From IMG/VR virus record IMGVR_UViG_3300025646_000060, positions 1 to 50,207 of that record: a stretch of 50,207 bases of DNA, one strand, 5' to 3'. Positions 29,315 through 50,207 of this stretch are shown one piece after another. This stretch comes from a virus. The translations under genes and the position numbers were made by a program. Below the pieces are notes generated by a model. It had not been told where the DNA came from and made no database searches. It saw only the letters and a list, made by a program, of their open reading frames with translations. Positions within the stretch are counted from its first letter, which is position 1. The number at the start of each line of letters is the position of its first letter.

Positions 29315-29598
29315 TTGCTACGTCTTTCCGCAAAGCCCTTGGTTGATGTGATTGACTCGGACACGACAGAATCTTCTGCCGTGAGGAGGTTCCGCTCCTC
29401 GTCTATTCTACGCAGAATGTCAAATGCGTCCATGATGGCCAGCCTCTTGGCGGCAGCAGCGTTCTTGAGCCTGTCAGCCGACAGGTCGCTCTCAATGTCG
29501 CCTGTTACGATGGGTTCTTTAGCCACTTTGATTAGCTCCTTGACAGCGTGCTCGCCAGCCGTTATGATCTCTTCCTTTAGCTTCCTTGTTTGAGACAT
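29311..29598 (-). CDS. Putative small terminase subunit, 95 residues
   Basis: A short, all-helical, charged protein (MSQTRKLKEEIITAGEHAV) whose TGA overlaps the terL start. It contains a long helix (RLKNAAAAKRLAIMDAFDI) suited to oligomer formation. Position directly upstream of and coupled to terL is the usual place of the DNA-recognition subunit, but no helix-turn-helix motif is clear. The call rests on context. Confidence 0.45.
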   Translation of the reverse strand: MSQTRKLKEEIITAGEHAVKELIKVAKEPIVTGDIESDLSADRLKNAAAAKRLAIMDAFDILRRIDEERNLLTAEDSVVSESITSTKGFAERRSK

Positions 29599-30152
29599 AT
29601 GTTTGAGTCATACATTCTATACAAAATCCTATCGTCAATTCTGAACTCATACTCAGAGTCAGGCTGAAAGGATATAACATCTCCACGTGAGACGCCAAGC
29701 TCACGCAATCTATCGTTAGGATACACCATAGAGCCCCATAGAGCGACGTTCGCACCCTTCTTGGCTATGATGGTATCTTTCTCTTCTTTTATTGGCTCTA
29801 CGAAGCAGTAACGGCCTACAGGCTCCCAGTCCTCGCCTGGATGTTTGTAGGCGTACAGCTGCATGTCGTCAAGGTAGTATAGATTTTCACGGATGAATGA
29901 GTAGGAGTCGATTTCCTTCCCCCTCATATCAAACATCTTGCGAAAAACATTATGGTGAACAATGACGTGATCACCAATAGCGATAGGGCCGCCATATCCA
30001 AAGGGGACATTGACGACCTCTGCGAGCCTGTTCGTAACGGTGTGGTCCTCTTGCGAGGTGCTAATAATGAACTCTTTGTCTCCGTAGCTTCTGGTATTAG
30101 TGTACCTTTTCCCATCAACAGGCTCTACCACAAAATAGTAGAGCGATTGCAT
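29577..30152 (-). CDS. GroES-like protein with two lobes, 191 residues
   Basis: The second half contains VGRYCFVEPIKEEKDT, closely similar to the start of the co-chaperonin encoded at 36464-36745 (IGRYILVEEVKEQEKTT). It ends GDVISFQPDSEYEF followed by RIDDRILYRM, the pattern of the GroES beta-barrel end. The first half has IAIGDHVIVHHNVF, also GroES-like, so the gene looks like a tandem pair of GroES-like barrels. Similar proteins sit beside terminase genes in other Bacteroidota phages. It could be a specialised co-chaperonin for capsid folding or a virion protein that reuses the fold. It overlaps the next gene by 22 bases. Function is inferred. Confidence 0.5.
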   Translation of the reverse strand: MQSLYYFVVEPVDGKRYTNTRSYGDKEFIISTSQEDHTVTNRLAEVVNVPFGYGGPIAIGDHVIVHHNVFRKMFDMRGKEIDSYSFIRENLYYLDDMQLYAYKHPGEDWEPVGRYCFVEPIKEEKDTIIAKKGANVALWGSMVYPNDRLRELGVSRGDVISFQPDSEYEFRIDDRILYRMYDSNICLKQGS

Positions 30153-36612: not shown

Positions 36613-36745
36613 CCTTCTTGTATCGGAGCTCATTGCTCTCCTTTACACCAAAATACAGCCCACTCTCCGTGGTCTTCTCCTGCTCCTTGACCTCTTCGAC
36701 CAAGATATAGCGGCCAATGGCCGTAACTCCACTCAATTTGCTCAT
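36464..36745 (-). CDS. groES: Co-chaperonin GroES, 93 residues
   Basis: GRYILVEEVKEQEKTTESGL at residues 11-30 is the GroES start with the mobile-loop region next to it. YKKATVLAVGTE and KEGLLLYVDKTAGHPILVNG give the barrel and roof strands. Length matches bacterial GroES (about 95). The ATG overlaps the TGA of the phage groEL gene (ATGA), so both subunits are probably made together. The order groEL then groES is the reverse of the usual bacterial operon. The last 149 bases overlap a convergent plus-strand gene. Confidence 0.85.
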   Translation of the reverse strand: MSKLSGVTAIGRYILVEEVKEQEKTTESGLYFGVKESNELRYKKATVLAVGTECHPSLKEGLLLYVDKTAGHPILVNGVSCYVIREQDVVLVC

Positions 36746-38271
36746 AAATCTCTTACATTAGATACAATAACGTTTGTCCCCATAATGGTCGTAGCTACGC
36801 TCACAGCGTTTTGTAGGGCCGTTCTAGTCACTTTCGCAGGGTCAGTGACACCCATCTTTATCATATCGCCATATCGTTGCGCTCTGACGTCGAAACCGAG
36901 CCCTGGCTCGCTCATTTGACCCTCTACATAGGACCAATCGTCGCCAGCGTTCTTCAAAATCTGCCTCATTGGCGCTTTTAACGCCTCGGACATGATTTTT
37001 GAGGCTGTTGAGGTCGACTTGACAACGACTGAAGTAGCGTTATGTAACGCGACTCCTCCCCCTGCAAGGATCCCCTCGTCCATGGCGGCTCTAACAGCAC
37101 ACACAGCGTCGTCAACACGGTCCTTCTTCTCCTTCTGCTCGATCTCAGAGTCAGCACCGACGTAAATAATGCCGATACCACCCGTCATATTGGCCACACG
37201 CTGCTTGTCGAACGTGTCATTGGATCCCGATAGGGATTCAATTTTCACCTTAATCGCACTCTCCTCACCGTGTCCACCTACAATGATGGTCTGCTCCTGT
37301 CCGCTGATGACTTTGTCGGCCTTACCCAACCAGTCCATACCAACCAGGCTCAGCTCATCGCCCGTGTCCTCGCTCACCAGTCGTGCACCGACCATAGCAG
37401 CGATGTCCTCCATCAGCTCCTTACGTCTGTAGCCGAAGTCAGGAGGCAACACCTGGCACACCTTGATCGTGCCCTTCATGGCGTTCACGTTCAGAGTGTT
37501 CAAAGCGTTCATCCCCATCTCAGAGATGATCAACAAACTCTTGCCACCCTGTACAATTGGCGCCAGCACGTGCTCCAAAGACGATAGGTTCTCGATCTTC
37601 TGGTCAGAGACCAAGATGTAGGGGTCCTGAAGCACGCATTCATTCTTCTTTTGGTCTGTAATAAAGAATCTTGACCCAACAGGTCTGTCCACCTTGATGC
37701 CCTCAATGATGTCGGCATAGGTCTCGTGGGTCTTTGAGTCAGCCACCGTCACGTATGACACCTTTGAGTAGGCGTCAGCGATCAGTGCACCAAGCTCAGC
37801 GTCACCGTTGGCACTAATAGTAGCCACATCAACCAACGTCTCAGGCGTTACTGGGATGGCCGTATCCTTGATGTAGTCAACGACCTTCGCTGCAATGACC
37901 TGAATCTCCTTGGCCAGCGTTCCCATGTCGGTGCCGTCCTTGGCGTGCTTCTTGGCTTCATTGACTATTGCTTGAGCCAGTACTATACTAGTACTGGTTC
38001 CATCACCAGCCTGTGTGGCCGTCTTCTCTGACGCCTCACGTGCCACGTTCACCGCCATGTTCTCGACAGGGTCGAACAGCGTAATGGACTTGGCCACCGT
38101 GACGCCATCTTTTGTGATGGTCACGCCATGGGTGTGGTTCTCAGACTCGATCAGCACCGTACGGCCCTTTGGACCCAGCGTGCTCTTCACGGCATCTGCC
38201 AATGTGTTGATGCCTTTGATTAACTTCTCCTGGCCTTCTCCGCCAAGATGCACATGCTTTAAAATTGCCAT
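36742..38271 (-). CDS. groEL: Chaperonin GroEL (60 kDa type), 509 residues
   Basis: Nucleotide-binding motifs are intact: TLGPKGRTV (32-40), TKDGVTVAK, AGDGTSTS and, in the second equatorial part, RVDDAVCAVRAA with AMDEGILAGGGVAL. The residues that correspond to the catalytic aspartates (in GDGT and VDDA) are kept, so ATP hydrolysis is likely. It is shorter than bacterial GroEL (about 545), lacks the C-terminal GGM tail and has a reduced apical domain. It probably folds phage capsid or other virion proteins with the phage GroES. It is transcribed from its own promoter; a hairpin lies upstream. Confidence 0.93.
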   Translation of the reverse strand: MAILKHVHLGGEGQEKLIKGINTLADAVKSTLGPKGRTVLIESENHTHGVTITKDGVTVAKSITLFDPVENMAVNVAREASEKTATQAGDGTSTSIVLAQAIVNEAKKHAKDGTDMGTLAKEIQVIAAKVVDYIKDTAIPVTPETLVDVATISANGDAELGALIADAYSKVSYVTVADSKTHETYADIIEGIKVDRPVGSRFFITDQKKNECVLQDPYILVSDQKIENLSSLEHVLAPIVQGGKSLLIISEMGMNALNTLNVNAMKGTIKVCQVLPPDFGYRRKELMEDIAAMVGARLVSEDTGDELSLVGMDWLGKADKVISGQEQTIIVGGHGEESAIKVKIESLSGSNDTFDKQRVANMTGGIGIIYVGADSEIEQKEKKDRVDDAVCAVRAAMDEGILAGGGVALHNATSVVVKSTSTASKIMSEALKAPMRQILKNAGDDWSYVEGQMSEPGLGFDVRAQRYGDMIKMGVTDPAKVTRTALQNAVSVATTIMGTNVIVSNVRDL

Positions 38272-44003: not shown

Positions 44004-44030
44004 CGGATTTTTTTCATTTGAAGTAAATAA

Positions 44031-44228
44031 TGTAGAAATGCTGTTTTGAAGCTCTCTTTTTCTTTTTTATTTTATTCTTCTTTTATACTTTTTAAATTTT
44101 CTGAAAACTGTAAAAAAAACAGCATTAGAGCATTGAAAAAAGTATTTCTATGAAAATCAATAAGTTACACGATGCTGTTTTAAATGTACAATAGTGCTGT
44201 TTTGTCCGTGAAACCGTGAAACAGCACT
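44031..44228. repeat. Left TGCTGTTTT repeat array with AT-rich tract (origin or operator candidate)
   Basis: TGCTGTTTT or its complement occurs at 44039-44047 (+), 44116-44124 (-), 44173-44181 (+), 44195-44203 (+) and 44219-44226 (-, eight bases). AGTGCTGTTT (44193-44202) and AAACAGCACT (44219-44228) form a perfect 10-bp inverted pair. Between the first repeats (44048-44115) the DNA is almost pure AT. Two 17-base units recur near the right end of the window: 44031-44047 equals 50178-50194, and 44165-44181 is the reverse complement of 50129-50145. The layout resembles iterons beside a DNA-unwinding region; binding sites for a regulator are an alternative. The rest of 44229-44307 holds two further small palindromes (44234-44247 and 44263-44278). 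Confidence 0.6.
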
Positions 44229-45051: not shown

Positions 45052-45107
45052 TAGTGCCGAGGGATGGCTCCCTCCACCCACACCTTAACGCCACTAGGTG
45101 AGCACTA
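45052..45107 (+). ncRNA. Three-way-junction RNA structure in the operon leader
   Basis: TAGTGC (45052-45057) pairs with GCACTA (45102-45107). Inside are hairpin GAGGGA-TGGC-TCCCTC (45059-45074) and hairpin CACCT/AGGTG (45081-45085 with 45096-45100). All three stems are perfect. No known riboswitch or ribozyme core was recognised. It may be a regulatory leader. Confidence 0.5.
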
Positions 45108-45113
45108 CATACT

Positions 45114-45163
45114 TCCCAAGCCAATAGGTTTGCCGCCCGTTCGAGTCGGGCCTTGTGGAGCCA
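45114..45163 (+). ncRNA. tRNA-like element E1 (variant)
   Basis: TCCCAAG (45114-45120) pairs with CTTGTGGA (45152-45159) if one T is bulged. A 14-nt insert (45121-45134) is followed by GCCCG, loop TTCGAGT, CGGGC (a canonical T-arm, 45135-45151), then G and CCA (45160-45163). The geometry equals that of the elements at 45658, 46351 and 47437 except for the bulge. An alternative hairpin (CAAGCC with GGTTTG) competes for the 5' part. The first gene of the operon starts 17 nt after CCA. Confidence 0.5.
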
Positions 45164-45179
45164 CTTAAACTAAACCATT

Positions 45180-45359
45180 ATGAACAACGAACAAAACAAC
45201 ACGATTGAAGTAATTGAGAACTATGTAGAAATGCCAAATGCCTGTTGGAATTTCAAAAGACACATTGTTAAAATCAAAAAACCAAATGGCGAAATTGAGG
45301 TCTTTTTTGGATTGAACCAAGACGATGTAGACCACTATTTGTCAAGTTTTAAAAACTAA
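45180..45359 (+). CDS. Hypothetical 59-residue protein
   Basis: ATG at 45180 opens MNNEQNNTIEVIENYVEMPN and the product has a small beta region (HIVKIKKPNGEIEVFFGL). More AT-rich than the genes that follow. It is the first gene of the small-gene operon, placed after a tRNA-like element, and its stop codon is immediately followed by a hammerhead ribozyme. Function unknown. Confidence 0.6.
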   Translation: MNNEQNNTIEVIENYVEMPNACWNFKRHIVKIKKPNGEIEVFFGLNQDDVDHYLSSFKN

Positions 45360-45409
45360 GTCAAACTGATGAGGCTTCAATAGCCGAAACGCCCTCGGGC
45401 GTCTTTGAC
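45360..45409 (+). ncRNA. Type I hammerhead self-cleaving ribozyme
   Basis: All elements are present in order. Stem I 5' strand GTCAAA (45360-45365), core CTGATGA (45366-45372), stem II GGC/GCC with a 7-nt loop (45373-45385), core GAAA (45386-45389), stem III CGCC-CTCG-GGCG (45390-45401), T16.1 and C17 (45402-45403), and stem I 3' strand TTTGAC (45404-45409), which pairs perfectly with the 5' strand. G10.1-C11.1 and A15.1-U16.1 pairs are canonical. Cleavage is expected between 45403 and 45404. The ribozyme starts at the base after the stop codon of the 59-residue gene and would separate it from the next coding region, leaving a 19-nt leader before ATG 45423. Confidence 0.9.
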
Positions 45410-45422
45410 AAACAATACCACC

Positions 45423-45650
45423 ATGAAAAAGTTCACCGACAAACAACTCCTATCCATGGAGAATGACATCGCTGCTGTCTGCGACAAGATGCGTAGGCTC
45501 CACGCCAAGTACAAAATCTCAGACAGGATGAGAGAGACCTACGACGATTGGTCTGACGACAGCGACCAAGCAATCGCACAACGATTCAACGATGTTGATG
45601 GATTCTTGGATGACTTTTGGCACATGCTTTACAGCATCAACCGAGACTAA
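45423..45650 (+). CDS. Hypothetical acidic protein, 75 residues
   Basis: The start is ATG at 45423 (MKKFTDKQLLSMENDIAAVC); a TTG six codons earlier lies within ribozyme stem I. The protein is helical and rich in Asp and Arg (SDRMRETYDDWSDDSDQA). No known domain. It lies between the hammerhead ribozyme and tRNA-like element E2. Confidence 0.6.
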   Translation: MKKFTDKQLLSMENDIAAVCDKMRRLHAKYKISDRMRETYDDWSDDSDQAIAQRFNDVDGFLDDFWHMLYSINRD

Positions 45651-45657
45651 CCACCCA

Positions 45658-45706
45658 TCCCCGTCACTGAGAGACAGCGTAGGTTCGAGACCTAGGCGGG
45701 GAGCCA
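45658..45706 (+). ncRNA. tRNA-like element E2
   Basis: TCCCCGT (45658-45664) and GCGGGGA (45696-45702) form a 7-bp acceptor-like stem with one G-T pair. The 14-nt insert CACTGAGAGACAGC contains a small hairpin (CTG/CAG). GTAGG, loop TTCGAGA, CCTAG (45679-45695) is a T-arm-like hairpin with one mismatch. G then CCA follow (45703-45706). It begins seven nt after a stop codon and ends 17 nt before the next ATG. There is no anticodon arm. Confidence 0.65.
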
Positions 45707-45723
45707 ACCCAATCTAAACTATT

Positions 45724-45978
45724 ATGACAAATCTAACACAACTAGAAACTGCCACCTTGGAAAAGGTAGCGTGGGAACAAACCGAAGACAACTACTCAGG
45801 CTTTCAAGAGGTCTGCGGCAACCAAGAGAAGGGCGTCCTAGGGTCGCTCATCAAGAAGGGCCTAGTCTACGACGCCTACGAGGGAATGGACATGGGCTAC
45901 ATGTTCTGCCTAACTGAGCAAGGCTTCGATACTTGCAAGTCAATTGGAATCTCAACCGACCACATTATCACATACTAA
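45724..45978 (+). CDS. Hypothetical protein, 84 residues
   Basis: Starts MTNLTQLETATLEKVAWEQT and contains VCGNQEKGVLGSLIKKGLVY and MGYMFCLTEQGFDTCKSIG. The helix-strand pattern with a VLGSLIKKGLV turn and a following hydrophobic strand resembles a small winged-helix fold, so DNA binding is possible. The leader CTAAACTATT before the ATG is repeated at other genes of the operon. Function otherwise unknown. Confidence 0.6.
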   Translation: MTNLTQLETATLEKVAWEQTEDNYSGFQEVCGNQEKGVLGSLIKKGLVYDAYEGMDMGYMFCLTEQGFDTCKSIGISTDHIITY

Positions 45979-45984
45979 ACCACC

Positions 45985-46341
45985 ATGAGAGAAGTAATCT
46001 TAACCCCAAATTTCAACCTGACATGGTCGGCATACTATGCCCTTTCAGGCGAACTGCTTGACACATTTGAGACTAGAGACAAGGCTGTCGAGTTCATCAG
46101 GTCTACGACACTTTTGTTCACCCACTCAGAAGACGCAGACGACCATCGTGTCTGCTCTTGGACGGGCAAGGTTTTCAATGAGGGCTTTTGCATCGCAGAT
46201 GGCGCCCGTTACACCGACGACGCCGACCTTGCGGCCAAGTACCTTAGAGAGTCATGCGGCTACCCCGCCACCATGTCAAACGCCGACATCATCGAGGCGG
46301 CCTACGCCGACGACATGTGTTACTACACCGAGTGGTACTAA
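45985..46341 (+). CDS. Hypothetical acidic protein, 118 residues
   Basis: Starts MREVILTPNFNLTWSAYYAL six bases after the previous stop. Rich in Asp, Ala and Tyr, with LLDTFETRDKAVEFIRST and DADDHRVCSWTG. It ends with an acidic aromatic tail (DDMCYYTEWY). No recognised domain. The highly acidic composition is typical of phage proteins that mimic DNA or bind host proteins, but that is inference. Confidence 0.55.
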   Translation: MREVILTPNFNLTWSAYYALSGELLDTFETRDKAVEFIRSTTLLFTHSEDADDHRVCSWTGKVFNEGFCIADGARYTDDADLAAKYLRESCGYPATMSNADIIEAAYADDMCYYTEWY

Positions 46342-46350
46342 CCACAACCT

Positions 46351-46399
46351 TCCCTGAGCCCATAAGACGGCGAGAGTTCATGACTCACTCAGGGAGCCA
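46351..46399 (+). ncRNA. tRNA-like element E3
   Basis: TCCCTGA (46351-46357) and TCAGGGA (46389-46395) pair perfectly over seven positions. The 14-nt insert is GCCCATAAGACGGC. GAGAG, loop TTCATGA, CTCAC (46372-46388) is the T-arm-like hairpin with one mismatch. G and CCA follow (46396-46399). Dimensions are identical to E2, while acceptor pairs 5 to 7 differ with both bases changed. Confidence 0.65.
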
Positions 46400-46416
46400 A
46401 ACCTAATCAAACTAAG

Positions 46417-46671
46417 ATGAAAAATCACAAAATGACCGAACAAGAATTGGCCGCCACCTTGAGTGACGCCATCAAGCAAATCAACGAACTGAAGCGCCGC
46501 TTGGCATTCGCTGAGGAGGACGCCCGTCAGTTTAAGGCATGGGCCATCGACAATGGCTTCGACCTTTATCGACCCACTGATGTGGCCGACTACGCTTGGT
46601 CTCACATCGAGAACATCTTAATTGCTACCGACCTTAACAACGACGAATCAGACGATTGGACTAACTATTAA
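46417..46671 (+). CDS. Hypothetical acidic coiled-coil protein, 84 residues
   Basis: Starts MKNHKMTEQELAATLSDAIK and continues as a coiled coil (QINELKRRLAFAEEDARQFK), ending in an acidic tail (NNDESDDWTNY). No known domain. The leader ATCAAACTAAG before the ATG is a variant of the repeated operon leader. Confidence 0.55.
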   Translation: MKNHKMTEQELAATLSDAIKQINELKRRLAFAEEDARQFKAWAIDNGFDLYRPTDVADYAWSHIENILIATDLNNDESDDWTNY

Positions 46672-46676
46672 TAACC

Positions 46677-47069
46677 ATGAACAAACTAGTAACTTATTAC
46701 GAGGGCTACGACCCACAAGAATTCATCGACGAGCACATGAACTTAATCGTCGCTCTTCAAGGCTTCAAGCCACTGATTCGCATCGACAAGGTAAGCAGCA
46801 ATGTGTACCGATTCGATATTCGAGAGGTGACAGATTTTGCTGTCGAGGAACTGAACTACGACAGCGATTGGGTAGTGACTGAACTACCCCCAAGATGGGG
46901 TGTAGCGCAGTTCTTCAGAGGCGAAAAGATTGGCCTTGTGAAGAAAGGCCTTCACCATCATCAAGCCAAGGCCTTGTGCAACAAACTTGATGAACGCCAA
47001 TTCCAAGTCGCAGACCTAGTAGACAACACATTCGTATCAACATCTTTCGAACCCATTCAAATTTTCTAA
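46677..47069 (+). CDS. Hypothetical protein, 130 residues
   Basis: Starts MNKLVTYYEGYDPQEFIDEH. Mixed alpha/beta with FKPLIRIDKVSSNVYRFDIR and GEKIGLVKKGLHHHQAKALC. There is a His cluster (LHHHQA), but no recognised family. It starts six bases after the previous stop and is followed three bases later by the tiny membrane peptide gene. Confidence 0.55.
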   Translation: MNKLVTYYEGYDPQEFIDEHMNLIVALQGFKPLIRIDKVSSNVYRFDIREVTDFAVEELNYDSDWVVTELPPRWGVAQFFRGEKIGLVKKGLHHHQAKALCNKLDERQFQVADLVDNTFVSTSFEPIQIF

Positions 47070-47071
47070 CC

Positions 47072-47164
47072 ATGAATCAAGATTTAAAAGAAACCCTAGT
47101 TGGCTTTTTAGCCTTGTTACCCGCTCTTGCGGCATGTCTGTTCGCCTTAATCATCTTCGGATAA
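47072..47164 (+). CDS. Tiny membrane peptide, 30 residues
   Basis: ATG at 47072 gives MNQDLKETLVGFLALLPALA and CLFALIIFG, a single hydrophobic helix to the C-terminus. It fits between two genes with a TAATG overlap to the next. It could be a small inner-membrane peptide acting on the host or on lysis. Short length keeps confidence moderate. Confidence 0.5.
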   Translation: MNQDLKETLVGFLALLPALAACLFALIIFG

Positions 47165-47430
47165 TGGAAGGCGTAAGTTTCAGAAGGGACCACCGCTTGT
47201 TCTACAGAGACAGCAACCTTCACACGCAGTACATCAGCCCCGACCCCGAGTTGCAATACGACAACTACGACATGGGCTACTTGGTCGTGCCACGCTACCG
47301 CTTCGACGAATTCTGCAAGTGGCATGAGAAGCAAGGCAACGACCTTGGCGACTTGTTCTACAAGTTCCAGACCAAGTTCGGTGACCCCGACACCATCCAT
47401 GTCTACCCCGACCTAGATTTCCACGGGTAG
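47164..47430 (+). CDS. Hypothetical protein, 88 residues
   Basis: The start is ATG at 47164, overlapping the previous TAA (TAATG). MEGVSFRRDHRLFYRDSNLH opens a protein rich in Tyr and Asp (DPELQYDNYDMGYLVVPRYR, then WHEKQGNDLGDLFYKFQ). No known domain. It is followed by tRNA-like element E4 seven bases after the stop. Confidence 0.55.
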   Translation: MEGVSFRRDHRLFYRDSNLHTQYISPDPELQYDNYDMGYLVVPRYRFDEFCKWHEKQGNDLGDLFYKFQTKFGDPDTIHVYPDLDFHG

Positions 47431-47436
47431 CACCCA

Positions 47437-47485
47437 TCCCCACCACCTATAGAAGGCGAAGGCTCATGACCTAGGTGGGGAGCCA
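47437..47485 (+). ncRNA. tRNA-like element E4
   Basis: TCCCCAC (47437-47443) and GTGGGGA (47475-47481) pair perfectly over seven positions. The insert CACCTATAGAAGGC holds a CCT/AGG mini-hairpin. GAAGG, loop CTCATGA, CCTAG (47458-47474) is the T-arm-like hairpin (inner three pairs). G and CCA follow (47482-47485). The geometry is the same as E2 and E3 to the base. Confidence 0.65.
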
Positions 47486-47503
47486 AACATAAATCAAACT
47501 ATT

Positions 47504-47854
47504 ATGAAAAAAACAATCACAACCCCAGACAACTTCACATGGCACATAGTTGACGCATCTGAAGCGAAATCACTCCACCAGTCAAATCATGAGGTCTATC
47601 AAATCTATGACGACTTGAGCGAATCTTTGATTGACGAAGGCCATTCATTCGACAACAACAACACCTATGGCATCGAGCCATCAACAAAAAATCAAACTAT
47701 GCTAACAAAAATCGAATCCGCAATGATTCTGGCGACGCTAGATGTCTTGCAACTGAACAACGACCTAAGCAAGGCAGATGCCGCATGGGACTTAATCACC
47801 GAGTACTTTGACTCTTTGGACAGCGTACAAAATCGAGAGGAGGACGGAGAATGA
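47504..47854 (+). CDS. Hypothetical acidic protein, 116 residues
   Basis: Starts MKKTITTPDNFTWHIVDASE. The C-terminal half (MLTKIESAMILATLDVLQLN) is helical and has its own ATG at 47700 preceded by the same AAATCAAACT leader, so a shorter product could also be made. Acidic end (REEDGE). Overlaps the next gene by ATGA. No known domain. Confidence 0.55.
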   Translation: MKKTITTPDNFTWHIVDASEAKSLHQSNHEVYQIYDDLSESLIDEGHSFDNNNTYGIEPSTKNQTMLTKIESAMILATLDVLQLNNDLSKADAAWDLITEYFDSLDSVQNREEDGE

Positions 47855-48099
47855 AACTCAAGCCTGAAGTAATCGCCATGGAGGTCGAGGACCTCTCGAA
47901 GCGAGTCACATTCGAAGAACTAGTGACCATGTACCTAGACGCTAGGTTTGAGTTGGTCGAGGCGTACGCCATTGGCGAATGGCTAGACGCCCTAGTAACC
48001 GCCTATCGGAACGACGACGACGACTCTTGGACCGAAGAGCAAATCGCCAAGGACCGAATGAATGTAATCAAAAAAGAAATCAGGACCAAGTACCTATAA
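47851..48099 (+). CDS. Hypothetical acidic protein, 82 residues
   Basis: MKLKPEVIAMEVEDLSKRVT, then VTMYLDARFELVEAYAIGEW and a DDDDSWTEEQIAK segment. Helical and acidic. The ATG overlaps the previous TGA, so expression is coupled. No recognised family. Confidence 0.55.
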   Translation: MKLKPEVIAMEVEDLSKRVTFEELVTMYLDARFELVEAYAIGEWLDALVTAYRNDDDDSWTEEQIAKDRMNVIKKEIRTKYL

Positions 48100-48120
48100 C
48101 CAACCCTAAATCAAACTATT

Positions 48121-48486
48121 ATGAAAAAGACAATCTTCATCGTGAGCCTTGCGCTCAACCTATTCTCATTCACGAGAAGTACAGACAGCCAAATCGTCAA
48201 CACCTTGGAGGACCTAAGCGAGTGGCTAGAGCAAGACATAGAGGCCGCTCTCGACCATGGCGACAAGGCCTTGGCCGACAACTTGGCCCAGTACAAGTTT
48301 CACATCGACGACCTTGTTGCAGAGTGCTTCGATGATAGTGAGAGAGAGGTCCACCAACACGAGTACAACCACCATGTAACAACTGAGCAGACCCGTGTTG
48401 TTCGAGACAACCAAGGGAATGTCATCTCAGTATGGGTAGACGGGCACTTATACACAGCAAACCATGAACTAGAAAACGAAATATAA
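48121..48486 (+). CDS. Possibly exported hypothetical protein, 121 residues
   Basis: The N-terminus MKKTIFIVSLALNLFSFTRS looks like a signal peptide or short membrane anchor. The rest is acidic and His-rich (VHQHEYNHHVTTEQTRVVRD). The leader and first codons (TAAATCAAACTATT then ATG AAA AAG ACA ATC) are almost the same as at 47504, which points to copying of this start unit. Function unknown. Confidence 0.55.
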   Translation: MKKTIFIVSLALNLFSFTRSTDSQIVNTLEDLSEWLEQDIEAALDHGDKALADNLAQYKFHIDDLVAECFDDSEREVHQHEYNHHVTTEQTRVVRDNQGNVISVWVDGHLYTANHELENEI

Positions 48487-48488
48487 CC

Positions 48489-48812
48489 ATGAAATTTTAT
48501 TACAACGAAACAGACGACGCAGATGCTCTCGTCGTGAACCTTACCTTCCAAGATGTGGAGTTAATGATTCAAGAGCACAACGAGCACTTTGGCACCGACT
48601 ACAAGTCTATCCAAGAGTTCAACGATGGCGAGGAATACAGAGAGTTCGTCGCCATGAGCAAGGCAGAGGCCGTCCATGCATACCTAGAAGAAAACGGGTA
48701 CAACGCCACAATAATTGGCGACCTAGTATGGGTGACCATTTGGACCGAGGACCTAGAAGATTCCATGCAAGTCATGGTCGACCTAGAAGACCCTAAATGG
48801 AACGAGATATGA
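48489..48812 (+). CDS. Hypothetical acidic protein, 107 residues
   Basis: Starts MKFYYNETDDADALVVNLTF. Alpha/beta with DYKSIQEFNDGEEYREFVAM and WVTIWTEDLEDSMQVMVDLE. Strongly acidic. It starts two bases after the previous stop and overlaps the next gene by four (ATGA). No known domain. Confidence 0.55.
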   Translation: MKFYYNETDDADALVVNLTFQDVELMIQEHNEHFGTDYKSIQEFNDGEEYREFVAMSKAEAVHAYLEENGYNATIIGDLVWVTIWTEDLEDSMQVMVDLEDPKWNEI

Positions 48813-48973
48813 GAGAACTGAACAAGTGGGCCATCATCGGTTTCGATATGACCGGATGGCCCGAGTTCATCTCAACCGAGATGACCAAAGGAGATGCAGA
48901 TTTGCTGTGCGAACATTTAAACAGCGACCCTGAAGAGGGTTATGAGTACTACGAAATAATTAAACTACCATGA
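48809..48973 (+). CDS. Hypothetical small protein, 54 residues
   Basis: ATG at 48809 overlaps the previous TGA. The product MRELNKWAIIGFDMTGWPEF and STEMTKGDADLLCEHLNSDP looks like a small alpha/beta unit; its TGA overlaps the next ATG as well. The double coupling supports it as a real gene. Function unknown. Confidence 0.6.
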   Translation: MRELNKWAIIGFDMTGWPEFISTEMTKGDADLLCEHLNSDPEEGYEYYEIIKLP

Positions 48974-49242
48974 AAATCAAAGACATTCGAACAATCCAAC
49001 AAGACATGGGGTACGCCCCGATCCAACGACTCATCGACAACGGCACAGCGTGGCAAATGGAAGGCTCAACGGGCCGACTTGCCATGAGTATGCTCAAGTC
49101 AGGTGCATGTTTCCTACCAAAGAAAGCATTCTATGACGCCTACGGCAACAAGGTTCCAAGCCGAGACGAGCTCCAAGAGGGAACCACTGGCACCATCCAG
49201 AACTCAATCAACTACTACAACAACATCTATGAACGCATCTAA
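48970..49242 (+). CDS. Hypothetical protein, 90 residues
   Basis: MKIKDIRTIQQDMGYAPIQR, then WQMEGSTGRLAMSMLKSGAC and a Tyr/Asn-rich end. Two Gly/Ser-containing turns (EGSTGRL) are visible but no known motif. It overlaps genes on both sides (4 and 14 bases). Confidence 0.55.
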   Translation: MKIKDIRTIQQDMGYAPIQRLIDNGTAWQMEGSTGRLAMSMLKSGACFLPKKAFYDAYGNKVPSRDELQEGTTGTIQNSINYYNNIYERI

Positions 49243-49432
49243 ACTGATTCGCCAAATCCAAGAACTCGCCATCGAGCATGGCGTGAGCCTTGACGACCTA
49301 AGTGTAAACTTCCGCTACGACCTGAACTCTGATGTGCACAGCATCGGCCATGTATTCGAGGACCTTTACGACGAGGAGACCAACACCACGCTGACTAGCA
49401 TCAGCCTATTATCAACCGACGAAGAATTTTAA
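49229..49432 (+). CDS. Hypothetical acidic protein, 67 residues
   Basis: The start is ATG at 49229 (MNASKLIRQIQELAIEHGVS); the frame is open farther upstream but that part is antisense-like low complexity over the previous gene. Helix then beta (LDDLSVNFRYDLNSDVHSIG), acidic end. No known family. Confidence 0.55.
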   Translation: MNASKLIRQIQELAIEHGVSLDDLSVNFRYDLNSDVHSIGHVFEDLYDEETNTTLTSISLLSTDEEF

Positions 49433-49434
49433 CT

Positions 49435-49689
49435 ATGAACAAGAAACAATCAATCCAAATTATCAAGAGTGGACGCTTCTTCTCTTGCGAATTCACTAAG
49501 AAAGACGGCACAACCCGCCGTCTCCATGGACGCTCAGGCGTAGTAAAAGGCCTGAAAGAAAACGCAAAGCCACGGGCATACGACCCACAAGAACTCGGGT
49601 ACCTGTGCGTGTGGGACATGAGCAAAAAGAACTACCGACTCATCAACTTGCAAACATTAACCAAAGTAAACAACCTAATTGTAAAATGA
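49435..49689 (+). CDS. Small basic SH3-like protein, 84 residues
   Basis: Basic, unlike its neighbours: MNKKQSIQIIKSGRFFSCEF, KKDGTTRRLHGRSGVVKGLK, then LGYLCVWDMSKKNYRLINLQ. I recall a short phage family with this F-x-x-KDG-x-x-R-x-x-x-x-R-x-GV pattern and YR-x-INL ending, predicted as a small beta-barrel that could bind nucleic acid. The assignment is from memory and no function is known. It overlaps the next gene by ATGA. Confidence 0.6.
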   Translation: MNKKQSIQIIKSGRFFSCEFTKKDGTTRRLHGRSGVVKGLKENAKPRAYDPQELGYLCVWDMSKKNYRLINLQTLTKVNNLIVK

Positions 49690-50048
49690 GCAATCTACTA
49701 GCACTATCCCGCAACGCTGAGGCCAACAATACCGGCTTCAGTTACAACATCACCACCGGAGAGGAGGCACCGAGCCACGGCTACATGGCATCCATGGAGG
49801 GACACGAGATGGAGGTCCGCAATGGCCAAGACCTAGTCAACCAAGTCAAACTATACACCCTATTCAATGCAGACATATTATCTGACGGAGAGACCTACCT
49901 TGGGTGTTGGTTTGACCAAGAGACCGAGTCGTGGTACCTTGACATCAGTCTACATTTTGAGACCCTAGAAGAGGCCCTTGCCTATGGTCTGAGCAACAAC
50001 CAAAATGCTGTTTGGGATTTGGCACAAAATCGATCGATAGACCTCTAA
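49686..50048 (+). CDS. Hypothetical protein, 120 residues
   Basis: The start is ATG at 49686 (MSNLLALSRNAEANNTGFSY), coupled to the previous stop. Contains GYMASMEGHEMEVRNGQD and YLGCWFDQETESWYLDISLH, then FETLEEALAYGLSNNQNAVW near the end. I recall phage proteins with the pattern G-Y-x-x-S-x-x-G and a W-x-D-x-x-x-x-x-YLD core, of unknown function. It is the last gene before the right repeat array. Confidence 0.6.
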   Translation: MSNLLALSRNAEANNTGFSYNITTGEEAPSHGYMASMEGHEMEVRNGQDLVNQVKLYTLFNADILSDGETYLGCWFDQETESWYLDISLHFETLEEALAYGLSNNQNAVWDLAQNRSIDL

Positions 50049-50091: not shown

Positions 50092-50194
50092 AGTGCTGTT
50101 TCGTCTAAAACAGCATCGTACAGCATTCAAAACAGCATCGTGTAATTAACTAACTTTCAATAACTTACTTACTAAAATGTAGAAATGCTGTTTT
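50092..50194. repeat. Right TGCTGTTTT repeat array
   Basis: Copies at 50094-50101 (+), 50107-50115 (-), a shorter one near 50120-50126 (-), 50129-50137 (-) and 50086+100 bases later at 50186-50194 (+). The 17-mer 50178-50194 is identical to 44031-44047, and 50129-50145 is the complement of 44165-44181. AT-rich DNA surrounds it. The window ends at 50207, so the array may be longer. The small-gene operon is therefore framed by related arrays. Confidence 0.6.
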
Positions 50195-50207
50195 ATTTCC
50201 CATTTCT

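Follow-up and report, generated by a model that had tools for sequence, protein, structure and literature searches.

What are the short, similarly built stretches that occupy gaps between genes in the small-gene cluster of this virus, and what might they do there? The window, meaning the whole 50,207-bp stretch analyzed, is an IMG/VR virus record from a bacterial virus of marine or freshwater origin. An independent record of the same virus (G001, IMGVR_UViG_3300025647_000034; 62,767 bp; 100% identity across the 7,163 bp compared) overlaps both window ends, and the genome is therefore approximately 62.8 kb long. Genes in the window match those for terminase, portal, GroEL, and GroES (the last two being phage-encoded homologues at 36742-38271 and 29577-30152), and the terminase shares 69% identity with that of a Manatee Spring podovirus and 44% with those of Flavobacterium elemo phages. 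Based on these matches and identities, the virus is grouped with podoviruses of Bacteroidota-type hosts, its own host being a predicted one. Structural genes lie on the minus strand and the small-gene cluster on the plus strand, from 45180 to approximately 50048. The tRNA-like elements described here, together with a hammerhead ribozyme, are confined to the long gaps of this early operon, and most of its other gaps are short, of the TAACCATG type. The features of the window are as follows.

45114-45163, plus strand: E0, a fourth mini tRNA-like element, 50 nt with one bulged T, identified by a match to model R1, an orthologue in contig L348, and leader length
45164-45179, plus strand: A/C-rich, unstructured leader of 16 nt after E0, running to the first ATG
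45180-50048, plus strand: early operon, at least 17 small genes without assigned function
45360-45409, plus strand: hammerhead ribozyme, type I, RAGATH-1-like, identified by descriptor, relatives, Rfam RF03152, and fold
45658-45706, plus strand: E1, 49-nt mini tRNA-like element, its CCA 17 nt upstream of the ATG at 45724
45707-45723, plus strand: leader after E1, 17 nt, of the same kind as the E0 leader
46351-46399, plus strand: E2, 49-nt mini tRNA-like element, its CCA 17 nt upstream of the ATG at 46417
46400-46416, plus strand: leader after E2, 17 nt, of the same kind
47437-47485, plus strand: E3, 49-nt mini tRNA-like element, its CCA 18 nt upstream of the ATG at 47504
47486-47503, plus strand: leader after E3, 18 nt, of the same kind

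The original prediction described E1, E2, and E3 as three intergenic elements built on a common 49-nt plan, and both the coordinates and the plan proved exact. The three copies stood, but a fourth had been missed: a covariance model built from E1 to E3 (R1) detected E0 at 19.3 bits (E=0.011), with the layout TCCCAAG CCAATAGGTTTGCC GCCCG TTCGAGT CGGGC CTTGtGGA G CCA, ending 16 nt upstream of the first-gene ATG. All elements are intercistronic and on the coding strand, and the distance from CCA to ATG in the window is nearly constant (16, 17, 17, and 18 nt for E0 to E3). A leader like those of the element-bearing gaps (CCAACCCTAAATCAAACTATT, 92% identical to the E3 leader over 36 nt) is also present at 48100-48120, where there is no element. 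The early operon is itself flanked on both sides by repeats around AACAGCAT (44029-44206 and 50092-50197). Among them, AATGTAGAAATGCTGTTTT occurs at 44029 and again at 50176 as an exact direct repeat of 19 nt, and TAAAACAGCATCGT, at 44169/50106, is a perfect inverted copy of 14 nt.

The covariation claimed for the outer stem was borne out, with 7/7 positions paired in all three elements and pairs 5, 6, and 7 altered on both sides. Across the E1 to E3 alignment, 7 of 15 pairs show two-sided changes, compared with at most 1 when the partner is shifted by 1 to 3 columns. The plan (7-bp stem, 14-nt insert, T-hairpin, NCCA) gave 0.003 matches in 300 dinucleotide shuffles of the window versus 3 observed; thermodynamic z-scores of the elements are modest (-0.7 to -2.6). 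Two parts of the predicted fold required revision. The T-arm-like hairpin has the 7-nt loop ascribed to it but not a clean 5-bp stem, since E1, E2, and E3 pair at 4/5, 4/5, and 3/5 positions (4/4 to 5/5 in the elements of relatives). The 14-nt insert, for which the original prediction gave no inner structure, holds a 3-bp hairpin (CTG-AGAGA-CAG in E1 and CCT-ATAGA-AGG in E3) with two covarying pairs, and the element fold is thus a three-armed mini tRNA. In E0 and its counterparts (window 45114-45163, L348:6354-6402, and L353:1929-1976), the insert can also pair with the 5' acceptor strand in competition with the 3' strand (CAAGCC/GGTTTG), a possible two-state switch. Upstream of E0, the operon leader is conserved (window 45059-45113; L348:6298-6353) and contains a covarying hairpin, GAGGGATGGCTCCCTC versus GAGAGACGGCTCTCTC, plus a D-arm-like stretch, and E0 may therefore derive from a longer tRNA-like leader.

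Covariance models and a phage search, proposed earlier as the way to check the family, yielded homologues with covarying stems in other viruses. Carriers came to light only once a small conserved early protein (49435-49689) served as the anchor, which brought in early regions of 80 records; the family is now known from five IMG/VR contigs in three lineages. One of these, IMGVR_UViG_3300021961_000106 (L348), carries four elements, as follows.

L348 6354-6402: E0', orthologue of E0, with a perfect 7-bp stem and a perfect 5-bp T-stem and compensating changes
L348 7181-7230: c, ending 5 nt upstream of an ATG
L348 8604-8649: d, following a gene homologous to the one before E3
L348 9951-9998: e, ending 2 nt upstream of an ATG

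Three near-identical contigs (L352, L353, and L354) have one element each, that of L353 ending 2 nt before an ATG. Among eight members, 92.7% of cells pair and two-sided changes affect 10 of 15 pairs (30 cells), compared with at most 4 pairs and 6 cells in slid controls; the alignment was fitted to the structure, which favors covariation, but the fit came from the three-sequence model and is shared by the slid controls. A model of the eight members (R2) recovered d, which had been held out, with a score of 22.4 bits (E=0.028 in 1 Mb), and folding gave the three-way junction as the minimum-energy structure for c, d, and e. The position of the elements is conserved while their sequence is not: the genes that precede E3 and d are homologous (33% identity, E=4e-12), and E0 and E0' each stand at the head of the operon, where the first gene is followed by a hammerhead in both viruses.

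All ten sequences have a 7-nt T-loop. The distance from T-loop to discriminator, which in tRNA is the 12-nt acceptor/T-stem ruler, is 12 nt in nine of the ten and 13 nt in E0 because of its bulge, and the run is split variously (7+5, 8+4, 6+1+5, or 6+2+4). Total length is 46 to 50 nt, the discriminator is G, T, C, or A, and CCA ends every member except those of L352 and L354, in which GCAA replaces GCCA. The T-loop is canonical only in E0, E0', E1, d, and L353/L352; E2 (TTCATGA), E3 (CTCATGA), c (AGCGAGA), and e (AGCAAGA) depart from it.

Wider searches found few carriers. The three-element model had no match in 48 terminase relatives. When the three-copy consensus was used as an exact pattern, 2.9 million viral contigs yielded only the window virus and two chance matches, and bacterial genomes yielded 19 matches, none with 7 acceptor pairs and at least 3 T pairs, which we attribute to chance. 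With a relaxed Asn-type pattern, viral contigs gave 67 and 73 stretches, mainly real phage tRNA-Asn genes and chance matches, with no more mini elements; scans with p48970 and with the E0 T-arm revealed no further carriers. A DNA similarity search of 50,697 phage GenBank records gave no match to the family, and absence beyond the five IMG/VR contigs is absence at the sensitivity used.

The resemblance of the elements to tRNA is specific. When R2 was run on 60 Bacteroidia genomes, all seven matches at E<=0.01 were tRNA-Asn genes (five confirmed by ARAGORN, and two falling on tRNA-Asn genes already located by pattern), with nothing else matched. Because the element model recognizes only tRNA-Asn genes, "tRNA-like" is here a fact of sequence plus structure. 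E1 is identical to a Bacteroidia tRNA-Asn at 26 of 32 core positions. In an element-by-element comparison against a single genome, tRNA-Asn was the top match only for E1, E3, c, and L353/L352; it came second for E0 and E2 and was outranked for E0', d, and e. Taken with the R2 matches, this mixed ranking indicates a family profile that is Asn-like and individual members that have drifted. The elements share with bacterial tRNA-Asn (GUU) the UCC/GGA acceptor, mostly G73, CCA, a T-arm with a 7-nt loop, and the 12-nt acceptor/T run, but they lack the pair of D- and anticodon-arms and the anticodon, and they measure 46 to 50 nt rather than 75 to 77. Thus, the acceptor stem, T-loop, stack, and (outside L352/L354) CCA expected of a tRNA (RF00005) are present, and a cloverleaf is not, there being one mini-arm only; ARAGORN called no element as a tRNA, and RF00005 gave no match at E<=10. 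No Rfam 15 family reached its gathering score with the elements or matched them even at E<=10. The original proposal, that anticodon-less tRNA-like elements form a family in the operon gaps, is supported both by the covarying homologues in other viruses and by the tRNA-Asn match; E0, the mini-arm, the tRNA-Asn affinity, and the adjoining hammerhead go beyond it. In mechanism, that proposal went no further than putative 49-nt products ending in CCA.

Reduced tRNA mimics are known elsewhere. In mascRNA and menRNA, the 3' tRNA mimics of human MALAT1 and MEN-beta, the mimic likewise lies inside a long transcript and keeps the acceptor and T stem-loop with the other arms reduced. mascRNA is excised by RNase P and RNase Z (PMC11693755). 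The phage elements also have a tRNA-like fold within a longer transcript, as judged by covariation, intercistronic place, and coding strand. They differ in being several intergenic copies with an encoded CCA and only predicted processing, whereas mascRNA and menRNA are single 3' copies in eukaryotic nuclear long noncoding RNAs. Theta ribozymes, which adjoin phage tRNAs, are comparable in that they, too, are RNA elements with ties to tRNA processing in phages of the Bacteroidota type (PMC10879173), but they are hepatitis delta virus (HDV)-like, trim real tRNAs, and have another fold. A predicted tmRNA gene, with the tag DNAQIEANMNKVFSLLREEVGVAA, was also seen in a related viral contig (L102:11643-12003).

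A different RNA device occupies the gap after the first gene of the same operon. The hammerhead core (CUGANGA...GAAA with three stems) is present at 45360-45409, composed of stem I (GTCAAA/TTTGAC), CTGATGA, stem II (GGCT/AGCC), GAAA, and stem III. Its score against Rfam RF03152 (RAGATH-1), 20.8 bits, is under the gathering score; that of a relative (L097) is 35.9 bits. Early regions of relatives contain 19 distinct hammerheads, all with a stem I of 6 bp, whereas none appeared when the 1.9 Mb searched was shuffled ten times. The predicted cut, after 45403, would leave a 19-nt leader before the ATG at 45423, and in relatives it falls 19 to 32 nt, mostly 19 to 24 nt, before the next ATG. Given element leaders of 16 to 18 nt, two unrelated RNA devices thus share one position. 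Hammerheads are known to flank genes in phages and have been proposed to split long transcripts into gene-length mRNAs, and in haloviruses HF1/HF2 the start of an early gene is preceded, at a distance of 13 nt, by a hammerhead whose cut site coincides with the mapped 5' end (PMC3088659). Phage hammerheads, including RAGATH-1 and the HF1/HF2 HHphage, therefore resemble the elements in slot and leader length, but they are self-cleaving, whereas the tRNA-like elements have no known ribozyme core.

Three other identities for the elements were rejected. The hammerhead descriptor matches only 45360-45409 in the window, which excludes E0 to E3 as ribozymes of that type; no U run follows any element, as an intrinsic terminator would have; and an attP fragment of a tRNA-Asn integration site does not account for several copies in which both stem strands are present and covary.

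That the elements are real and conserved by compensating mutations is confirmed. Our best explanation, to which we give an even chance, is that they are miniature tRNA mimics acting as RNA-processing punctuation in a long early transcript, probably as substrates of RNase P. Such a mimic would combine a tRNA-Asn-like acceptor stem, a T-arm, and a CCA end with one mini-arm in place of the D- and anticodon-arms. RNase P of the host, perhaps together with an enzyme that matures tRNA 3' ends, would recognize the acceptor/T-stem stack and NCCA end and cut at the element. The cut would release the upstream mRNA just beyond its stop codon, and the message for the downstream genes would begin at a new 5' end and have a short open leader. 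At its own gap, the hammerhead would do the same job, protein-free. At the sequence level, this explanation draws on the fold, covariation, tRNA-Asn likeness, 12-nt ruler, CCA, same-strand orientation, intercistronic place, and hammerhead in the same slot, and on the retention of an element in orthologous gaps despite changed sequence (E3 and d). Bacterial RNase P accepts as substrates hairpins that combine an acceptor stem, T-stem, and T-loop with RCCA, among them the minimal models AT1 and pMini3bp (PMC11143913); those are designed molecules, and the phage elements additionally keep the mini-arm. RNase P also cuts natural phage RNAs and polycistronic mRNAs (PMC11143913; PMC12710915).

Several observations count against punctuation. 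The elements c, e, and L353 end only 2 to 5 nt before an ATG, where cleavage after CCA would produce an mRNA with almost no leader. The GCAA of L352/L354, four noncanonical T-loops, the mixed per-element tRNA-Asn ranking, and the modest z-scores point the same way. The short spacing, noncanonical T-loops, and CCA loss leave room for an uncut structural role, in which a stable three-way junction upstream of the start codon would isolate or regulate initiation and the tRNA look would reflect ancestry only. We regard such insulation or translational control as improbable yet the strongest competitor. The fixed place directly before start codons and the drift of the T-loop in E2, E3, c, and e would fit it, as would the value of an open leader, since the host type is not known to rely on Shine-Dalgarno-driven initiation. 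However, it does not account for the retention of CCA, the 7-nt loop, and the 12-nt ruler through changes in the stems, or for the presence of a self-cleaving ribozyme in an equivalent slot.

Alternatively, the 46- to 50-nt CCA-ended RNAs, once released, might act in trans, for example, as decoys for host RNase P or for a host enzyme or defense nuclease that handles tRNA-Asn or tRNA 3' ends. Several copies in a phage early operon and an Asn-type acceptor with U1-A72, mostly G73, and CCA would suit a decoy, but no single identity is held, since the first pair and discriminator vary (A-T and T73 in E0', C73 in d, and A73 in e), and the steady ATG spacing in the window points to a role in cis; we consider this reading distinctly unlikely. 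Decayed or selfish tRNA-Asn-derived repeats without function, which the tRNA-Asn resemblance, several paralogues per genome, and noncanonical T-loops in some copies might suggest, are very improbable, as a fold in which 10 of 15 pairs have changed on each side must be under selection and the element is kept at orthologous positions between viruses.

In sum, this work adds a phage RNA family that is absent from Rfam and has strong covariation support, and it connects tRNA mimicry with minimal RNase P substrates and with ribozymes that punctuate phage transcripts, three ideas that are usually separate. If the proposed processing is true, natural parts of 46 to 50 nt could separate operon genes without ribozymes or real tRNAs, and the elements would offer a direct test of the minimum tRNA needed by bacterial tRNA-maturation enzymes in nature. 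The broader reading, on which we remain tentative and which we place somewhat below an even chance, is that this phage lineage punctuates its polycistronic early mRNA with a dedicated family of miniature tRNA mimics, lacking an anticodon, to which the tRNA-maturation machinery of the host would be drawn; these mimics and self-cleaving hammerheads would be interchangeable. If true, this would be a bacterial-virus version of mitochondrial tRNA punctuation, without real tRNAs.
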